Shown one piece after another: positions 7,704 through 9,578 of a stretch of 10,206 bases of DNA. The first letter of the stretch is position 1, and every line of letters starts with the position of its first letter. Source of the DNA: Oscillospiraceae bacterium (GTDB lineage Bacteria > Bacillota_A > Clostridia > Oscillospirales > Oscillospiraceae); contig JAFQUA010000012.1 of the NCBI GenBank assembly GCA_017408725.1, positions 1 to 10,206 on the forward strand, read 5' to 3'. The notes below the pieces were generated by a model, which saw only the letters and a list, made by a program, of their open reading frames with translations, did no database searches and had not been told where the DNA came from. Position numbers and translations under genes: made by a program.

Positions 7704-8543
7704 TTACACTTCGGTATTCGGAATTCCCCGCTGGGTCACAAAGATGTTACCTTCTTCATTGACCGTAATGTCAAAAATCAGAGTTTCTGTAGTTCCATTG
7801 GTGTAATCGATCTTAATTGTAATTGTATCCCGGATGGACTCCAGAGGGATCGTGGGATCCTTGTGAAGTTCAAAGGCAAGTTCACTGGAAATCGACCAAC
7901 GAAAATCAGCTTTACGAACATTAGGCCAGTATATCGTGCCTTTTTCCGGGTTTGGCCCAAACAAGCGCGCTCCCTTGCTTACGGAGCCCACTCCCGTAGT
8001 TTCAATATCAACGTTCTTGACCGTGGAGCAATCACTAAAATCCAGCGTTATTCCACCGTTGCTTATAATGGTTGTAATAGCACCAGGGTATCCCCATCTG
8101 ATCACCGAACCTTTGCCTCCCAAACTGAACTCATCGGCAATTGCCATTTCTTCAGCATATACTTTCTCATGTTCCTCTTTGGTAAGTGCTCTGGTGTCAC
8201 GAATCCGGATCATGCCATTTAGAGGAATAGACACATCCGGAGACACATTTTTCTGGGTTGTTTGACCTTCAATGTTGGTCAAACATGTGATCTTCACTTT
8301 TGCCTGCTGCGTCGGCTGGGGCGTATCGGTAGCGTCCGCCGAGAGTCCGGGCTGCTCACCGGGTAGAGTCGTCACAACTGTCGGAGACTGCTCAATTCCC
8401 ATACCCAGCACCGTCACCAGCAGCGCGAAGCAGAGACCCGACGCAGCGATGAATACGCCGTTTCTGCGTCTGCGTTCTTTCTTCACAATTTCTGCGCCTG
8501 CTTTTTCAAGCACGCTTTCTGTCATTTCACGATAAGTTTTCAT
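7704..8543 (-). CDS. Single-pass membrane protein downstream of an ECF sigma gene, putative anti-sigma factor
   Basis: The 279-residue product has a short, charged cytoplasmic N-terminus (about 1-28, ending KKERRRRN), one membrane segment (about 29-50), a Thr/Pro-rich linker (about 51-80) and an outer domain of about 200 residues rich in predicted beta strands. I recognise no known domain in the outer part. The ATG at 8543 has GGAGGG 8 bases upstream; the open frame to a TTG at 8549 is less likely. It overlaps the 3' end of the ECF sigma gene by 17 bases, the classic sigma/anti-sigma arrangement, so sequestering that sigma factor at the membrane is the natural guess. It lacks the HxxxCxxC zinc motif of many anti-sigma factors, and its cytoplasmic part is very short. 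The gene looks intact although the sigma gene is broken. Confidence 0.8.
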   Translation of the reverse strand: MKTYREMTESVLEKAGAEIVKKERRRRNGVFIAASGLCFALLVTVLGMGIEQSPTVVTTLPGEQPGLSADATDTPQPTQQAKVKITCLTNIEGQTTQKNVSPDVSIPLNGMIRIRDTRALTKEEHEKVYAEEMAIADEFSLGGKGSVIRWGYPGAITTIISNGGITLDFSDCSTVKNVDIETTGVGSVSKGARLFGPNPEKGTIYWPNVRKADFRWSISSELAFELHKDPTIPLESIRDTITIKIDYTNGTTETLIFDITVNEEGNIFVTQRGIPNTEV

Positions 8544-9116
8544 AATCAAATCCCTCCATTATCAGTATTGTTTTCAACGCCTGCCGTGCACGGTAAGCAA
8601 TCGTTTCAATATTGTGGGTAGTCTTATGCAGGATATGGGCGATTTCCTTATAAGAAAAGCCCTCAAAGTACGCAAGCCACAGTACCTGCTGATACTCCTG
8701 CTTCAGCTTCTTCATGCAGCGATGCACCATGATCTTATTTTCCTGCTGTATGTACCGCTGTTCTAAGTCTTCTTCGTCATTGCAGATCTGCAGGCAGTCA
8801 TCCAATGGCAGTTCCGCTTTCCTGCTTCGCCGCAGATGGTCGATAGCCGTGTTTCTGCCGATGGTATACAGCCACGTCTTGAAAGCAGACTGATGGTATA
8901 CAGCCACGTCTTGAAAGCAGACTGCTGAGAAAAACGGGGGCGCTTGACCACCAGCTTTACGAATGTATTCTCCGTCAGCTCTTCAGCAAGCTGTAGATCA
9001 TTGACGACACCGTGCAAATACAGGATTAAGCCGTCTTTGTACACGCAGATGATCTCTTCCAATCCGCTGTTATCCCCACTTAAGAAGCGGCGGTAGCTGT
9101 CCATCCCGCTGTCCAT
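8527..9116 (-). pseudogene. ECF RNA polymerase sigma factor, frameshifted by a 32-bp tandem duplication
   Basis: The ATG at 9116 has a consensus site AAAGGAGG 6 bases upstream. The frame encodes sigma region 2 (about residues 18-75, including LAEELTENTFVKLV and SAFKTWLYTI), then meets a second copy of a 32-base segment, shifts frame and stops at 8763 after 117 residues, the last 42 foreign. Another frame continues with GRNTAIDHLRRSRK, a linker and region 4 with a helix-turn-helix (FSYKEIAHILHKTTHNIE) to a TGA at 8527. Removing one 32-base copy joins the two into a normal 185-residue sigma-70 family ECF protein, which would direct RNA polymerase to specific promoters, probably under control of the overlapping downstream membrane protein. 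As written the gene makes no region 4. It may be an inactive allele, a phase-off state or an assembly error. Confidence 0.88.
8860..8923. repeat. Perfect tandem duplication, unit 32 bp, inside the ECF sigma gene
   Basis: Bases 8860-8891 and 8892-8923 are identical, directly abutting copies, and the following G is shared too. The unit starts GATGGTATACAGCC and ends GAAAGCAGACT on the plus strand. As 32 is not a multiple of 3, the second copy shifts the sigma reading frame. Loss of one copy by slippage or recombination would restore it. Confidence 0.97.
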
Positions 9117-9211
9117 TGAATTCCTCCTTTATTTCTCTTTTCACCTATTAGACGATCTCAGGCAATAAAACCTCACAGCAAAAACCATCAAGGAAAAATA
9201 TTGAAACGATA

Positions 9212-9240
9212 TTGAATAATTAATTATTTTGTGCTAAACT
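9212..9240 (+). promoter_or_regulatory. Candidate promoter in the intergenic region right of the sigma gene
   Basis: TTGAAT (9212-9217), a 17-base spacer and TAAACT (9235-9240) fit a sigma-A promoter pointing right. It overlaps a perfect 14-bp AT palindrome (AATAATTAATTATT, 9215-9228). The only thing downstream on this strand is a 24-codon ORF, so its target is unclear. The AT-rich context makes chance matches likely. Confidence 0.35.
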
Positions 9241-9316
9241 TATATGGTTAGAGTTTCAAAGCTTACCACCCTGCTATATATAAAGAATAACAGAAAACGA
9301 AGGAGTTTTACAATAT

Positions 9317-9391: not shown

Positions 9392-9528
9392 TAAACACTA
9401 GGTTTTTCAACATCTTTAAAACACATAAGTCCACGCAACTCTATGCCTTCCAATGCAAAAATGGCGTAAAATTGGCGTAAAATGGCGTAGAGAAAATCAG
9501 CCGACAGCCTGGGAAAAAGTACATACTG
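9358..9528 (-). other. Possible gene remnant, 56 codons open without a start
   Basis: On the minus strand this frame is open from a TAG to a TGA and reads as protein-like sequence, ending LEGIELRGLMCFKDVEKP and then SVYQAISAFVEIH. It has no ATG or GTG start and no ribosome binding site. It contains the three-fold short repeat at 9462-9488, which encodes YAILRQFYAIF. It could be the decayed end of a gene or a chance open frame. I do not recognise the family. Confidence 0.22.
9462..9488. repeat. Three spaced direct copies of TGGCGT
   Basis: TGGCGT occurs at 9462-9467, 9473-9478 and 9483-9488, with AAAA-rich spacers of 4-5 bases, giving periods of 11 and 10 bases, about one helical turn. This could be a protein-binding array or simple slippage in a decaying sequence. 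No neighbouring gene explains it. Confidence 0.6.
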
Positions 9529-9530
9529 CT

Positions 9531-9578
9531 ACCAAAACAACACCCCGTCTTCGTACTTAACCGTACAAAAGCGGGGTG
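9531..9578 (-). terminator. Terminator of the LysR-family gene
   Basis: On the minus strand CACCCCG (9578-9572) pairs with CGGGGTG (9547-9541), and an inner GTAC/GTAC pairing extends the stem. It is followed by TTGTTTTGG (9540-9532). The hairpin begins 6 bases after the LysR stop codon. Confidence 0.7.

Follow-up and report, generated by a model that had tools for sequence, protein, structure and literature searches.

The window analysed here, a stretch of 10,206 nucleotides from an Oscillospiraceae bacterium, carries on its minus strand an ECF sigma factor gene (start codon ATG 9116) that is interrupted by an exact tandem duplication of 32 bases. The preliminary description had proposed that this duplication is an on/off switch, by which precise gain and loss of one copy would turn a regulon off and on. 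Is the locus such a switch, an allele that has lost its function, or an error of assembly? In our view it is probably, though by no means certainly, a recent allele that has cost an autoregulated ECF sigma gene its function, within one lineage of a relative of gut Oscillospiraceae.

The duplicated unit and the divided sigma gene

The two 32-base copies adjoin each other and are identical, as had been claimed. A repeat search found them at 100% identity, and Tandem Repeats Finder reports 8860-8924 with period 32, copy number 2.0, match 100% and indels 0; base 8924 extends the period by one further position. The unit falls where the gene is best conserved (SAFKTWLYTI), and the ends of the duplicated stretch have 1 matching base in common. 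The window and 48 further loci, 49 sequences with 781,558 bases in all, were surveyed for directly adjoining exact copies of a 20-100-base unit. Four such repeats came up, among them the 32-base repeat of the window; in two of the remaining three the unit length is a multiple of three, and the last is at a locus end (L036, 11-199). The tandem duplication is beyond chance. Its exact unit occurs in 0 of 68 loci and 26 bases of it had 0 matches in viral contigs; a plasmid search with 8400-9300 gave no match, nor did an Rfam search of the window at gathering thresholds.

The predicted effect on the reading frame was confirmed as well. The frame is lost after residue 75, from where ORF1 continues for 42 out-of-frame residues, and without one copy the true sigma pieces, 75 and 110 residues long, together make 185, which is also the length of all eight close relatives compared (P0001-P0008). 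Pfam finds on ORF1 a partial Sigma70_r2 alone (profile 10-56 of 71), and the second sigma frame, open from 8982, matches Sigma70_r4_2 (E 1.9e-13). Both frames are simultaneously open for 217 bases (8982 to 8765). With TIGR02937 (cut-off 42.9 bits) the relative P0003 scores 95.4, the second frame of the window 74.1 and ORF1 20.2. The preliminary description had region 4 removed; it is indeed absent from ORF1, but it is still present in the DNA in the other frame, and ORF1 also lacks the end of region 2. Sigma-70 regions 2 and 4, which an ECF factor combines within one protein, are thus split over two frames in the window. A shorter call of the second frame, 92 aa from TTG 8805, corresponds to protein P0011.

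Table 1. Features of the sigma operon in the window
Feature	Position	Strand	Remarks
32-base unit, first copy (by + coordinate)	8860..8891	-	repeat search, 100% identity
32-base unit, second copy	8892..8923	-	identical to first copy; repeat search, 100%
ORF1	8763..9116	-	117 aa: sigma residues 1-75 and 42 out-of-frame residues; partial region 2 only
Second sigma frame	8527..8907	-	126 aa from GTG 8907; region 4, preceded by the last part of region 2
Ribosome binding site AAGGAGG of sigma gene	9123..9129	-	ends 6 bases upstream of ATG
ECF-type promoter motif TGTGAGGTTT-N13-CGTCTAA	9148..9177	-	conserved ahead of sigma gene in relatives
Putative anti-sigma partner gene	7704..8543	-	279 aa, intact; overlaps sigma gene

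Promoter, partner gene and predicted regulon

Both flanks of the gene had been described as undamaged, which agrees with the intact promoter motif, the AAGGAGG ribosome binding site and the overlapping downstream gene (Table 1). The promoter motif at 9148-9177 had 0 matches in 200 shuffles. G001, the Oscillospiraceae genome from sheep colon that contains locus L001, belongs to a genus of which 136 genomes were searched. Sigma matches at E 1e-30 numbered 58, in 45 of these genomes, and the motif was searched in the nine of the 45 with the best sigma matches. Seven of the nine contain it exactly, with a single match each that always lies directly ahead of the sigma gene. At no more than one mismatch there are 9 matches, of which 8 precede a sigma gene; the remaining one, in G003, is past a second sigma gene at a distance of about 1 kb. 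At up to three mismatches the nine genomes contain 17 matches vs 50 for a reversed control. Since near-exact matches almost all precede the sigma gene, this gene is likely autoregulated. A wide regulon with the strict motif was not seen in the nine related genomes, though one with a looser motif may exist, and since the motif stands almost solely ahead of the sigma gene there, the regulon may be just the sigma operon. The claimed switch for a regulon is weakened by this distribution.

The partner gene starts at ATG 8543 and overlaps the end of the sigma gene (whose stop ends at 8527) by 17 bases. Sigma and partner genes are adjacent in relatives too, in L069 beside the same serine dehydratase gene as in the window. 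For the partner protein, structure prediction (mean pLDDT 72.4; residues 15-79 under 50) gave a single long helix at the N terminus and, with confidence, an outer domain rich in beta strands, and a search at E 0.001 retrieved 30 related proteins, itself included. In its sigma domains, gene overlap, adjoining partner and own promoter motif, the last two both present at the sequence level, the locus resembles ECF operons with a membrane anti-sigma partner. It differs from them in its broken sigma gene and in its partner protein, for which Pfam and NCBIfam gave no family match and the predicted fold had no match among PDB chains at a threshold of E 0.001.

Two further elements of the window were observed beside this operon. 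Upstream of the sigma gene, 9430-9548 holds an intergenic element with three TGGCGTA-like direct repeats, which is 92% identical at the same place in G001, vs 72% DNA identity for the sigma-gene stretch. A second copy (about 80%) lies in the same orientation beyond the partner gene in L001. At E 1e-5 the element was found in 10 of the 136 genomes, where its position varies; its neighbour in the window is a LysR-like gene, as it is in L085 on visual inspection. The element is possibly the end of an integrating element. At the left end of the window, 77-192 matches L069 1-121 at 87%, above the surrounding coding DNA, and has no Rfam match.

Age of the break and competing explanations

The duplication appears to be recent, in agreement with the preliminary description. 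Compared with the eight close relatives P0001-P0008, residue 102 is the sole residue of 185 that is private to the window, and the sigma gene has no further stop or gap; the further stops, indels and unusual substitutions of an old pseudogene are thus not seen beyond this one private residue. Because so few residues are private and the flanks are intact, the break would be young. By codon position, the differences to L001 number 23, 13 and 48 in the 75 codons of the N half and 19, 21 and 47 in the 108 codons of the C half, which favours third positions in both halves, but this is a weak test of age because most of the divergence from L001 predates the break.

A comparison with related genomes, which the preliminary description had suggested as a check, gave no sign of a switch: neither a stop nor a duplication was found in any of 40 distinct related genes (E 1e-30; 46 rows minus 6 repeats; identity 41 to 68%). 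Likewise, 57 of the 58 sigma matches listed from the 136 genomes have no internal stop, the exception being a 33% identical paralogue, and one of the 58, in G111, spans residues 1-107 only. At E 1e-100, 111 of the 136 genomes contain a relative of the window's proline-tRNA ligase, with identities of up to 93%, and many other close matches are labelled as ruminant gut assemblies. Among 120 sigma relatives listed of 547 matches, P0121, P0141, P0145, P0157 and P0186 are shorter than 130 aa. The last four do not have the break of the window, because their sigma sequence continues past residue 75, and the idea of the duplication site as a hot spot was rejected on this ground. Second-frame relatives shorter than 100 aa, among 120 listed of 234 matches, are P0011, P0039 and P0109; P0039 is on a 554-base contig and P0109 lacks a start residue, and the shortness of these two may be due to contig ends.

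P0121 is identical to the frameshifted 117-aa protein and has 1 member sequence on 5 contigs, the longest of 11,487 bases; P0213 is identical to the partner protein and has the same figures, all of which come from a protein-level listing that does not imply independence of samples and whose 90% clusters may hide a one-copy form. The 92-aa region-4 fragment P0011 has 2 members and 1 contig of 3,385 bases. Since P0121 and P0213 are each on 5 contigs with the same longest one, an isolated error of assembly is not the most probable explanation and the break would extend beyond one assembly; the same figures suggest that an allele fixed in one lineage fits better than a mixed population.

An unlikely, though not negligible, alternative is that two contig ends overlapping by 32 conserved bases, perhaps from two strains, were joined unmerged. 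The high conservation at the site of the unit agrees with such a join, and so does the comparison with P0003, the closest relative: none of the 75 residues ahead of the break differ, as against 10 of the 110 that follow (Fisher 0.006, one of eight comparisons, uncorrected). Such a jump in similarity may be a hint that two strains were joined. P0002 has 1 difference before the break and 9 after it (0.05), and for the other six relatives p ranges from 0.07 to 1. However, C halves diverge more elsewhere too, with 246 N vs 508 C differences summed over 28 pairs, and given these shares the chance of 0 of 10 differences falling in the N half is about 0.02. Moreover, the C half of the window has residues such as R88 and V120, which among the eight relatives are otherwise found only in P0002 and P0003. 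Since the window has these residues beyond the break in common with P0002 and P0003, the contig is not taken for two unrelated halves put together. Collinearity with L001 on either flank and the presence of the identical frameshifted protein on 5 contigs also argue against a faulty join. In favour of such a join are two proteins of short contigs with a mosaic appearance around the stretch of the unit or after it: P0122 (821-base contig) has 67 of 75 N residues as the window and a different C half, and P0014 (982-base contig) has 45 of 75 N residues as the window and final 53 residues identical to those of the window. Both could be assembly chimeras or products of recombination. Among the titles listed on false tandem duplications in assemblies, none concerned bacteria.

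Quite unlikely, in our estimate, is phase variation, in which cells would alternate between one and two copies and thereby turn the sigma/anti-sigma operon on and off. The copies are exact, their length is out of frame and the gene is otherwise undamaged, and reversible in-gene duplications are described in pneumococcus in the excerpts discussed below. The claim was nevertheless not borne out: no mixture and no second, one-copy allele of the same strain was seen among the listed P0121 and P0213 contigs (at the protein level, where 90% clusters may hide a one-copy form), 0 of the 40 related genes are duplicated, and the predicted regulon barely exceeds the operon. The ends of the duplicated stretch match by 1 base, and therefore the one-copy form would be without a repeat for slippage; with no resident array, switching OFF would require a new and rare mutation, not slippage. 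Simple-sequence contingency loci show slipped-strand phase variation in which the frame is set by repeat number. The frame of the window likewise depends on repeat number, but there are two copies of a 32-base unit and no array in the compared relatives, so that a repeat in both states, as such loci have, is not found. Fixed two-copy alleles together with other decay in the gene had been named beforehand as the outcome that would speak against a switch; the two-copy allele is apparently fixed, but other decay was not seen. Among the literature titles listed on ECF sigma factors and phase variation, none concerned an ECF sigma gene switched by tandem duplication. The two-copy allele is in principle revertible, and a two-copy OFF state with precise reversion in few cells would amount to bet hedging via a transcription regulator instead of a surface gene, which we regard as very unlikely.

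Two-part sigma factors exist, for example SigO/RsoA of B. subtilis. Joint action of ORF1 and the region-4 frame, both being translated, is highly improbable here: the two frames are open across the same 217 bases, the second has GTG and TTG starts and P0011 is predicted on its 3,385-base contig, but ORF1 ends within region 2 (profile 56 of 71) and carries 42 out-of-frame residues, the GTG has no recognisable ribosome binding site, the TTG has a weak one at best (AGGAAAG, 12 bases upstream), and the split form is absent from all compared relatives.

Known in-gene duplications and the meaning of the allele

For pneumococcal capsule genes, the available excerpts of two papers (PMC4022640, PMC4243769) describe, after Waite et al. 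2001, 2003, reversible sequence duplications within the gene, and one of them puts the reversion to be expected of a nine-base insertion at about 1e-5 or below (PMC4022640). The window has the same type of change, an exact, short tandem duplication inside the reading frame by which the frame is lost and the gene would be silenced, a state described in these excerpts as reversible. Unlike the capsule case, in which phase variation was observed according to the excerpts, the window is known from sequence and the target is a regulator gene. So far as sequence can show, the event in the window may work like the pneumococcal kind. In fission yeast, microhomology-mediated tandem duplications are described, in the excerpts at hand, as lying within genes, causing a premature stop and being revertible (Dan et al. 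2021; review PMC13207564). The window resembles these in its in-gene duplication and premature stop. However, reversible fungal duplications are flanked by short matching sequences according to the excerpt of the review (PMC13207564), whereas such a pair is missing in the window, where the ends share 1 base.

According to the preferred explanation, loss of function in one lineage, a spontaneous out-of-frame tandem duplication of 32 bases would have arisen by template slippage or end joining, almost without matching sequence. The frame has been lost after residue 75, which leaves regions 2 and 4 in two frames. The 117-aa product would be inactive because it lacks region 4 altogether and region 2 in its final part, and the sigma operon would be left at basal expression because the sigma factor could not drive its own promoter. 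The two copies might recombine or slip back, which would allow rare reversion without providing a built-in switch. The natural reading is thus a one-way OFF event with rare reversion.

If this is a plain loss-of-function allele, the locus is an example of the loss of a signalling operon in gut bacteria and little more. If, on the other hand, a mixture of one-copy and two-copy forms were true, the locus would represent a switch of a whole operon by a mechanism that the excerpted literature describes for pneumococcal capsule genes and fungi.
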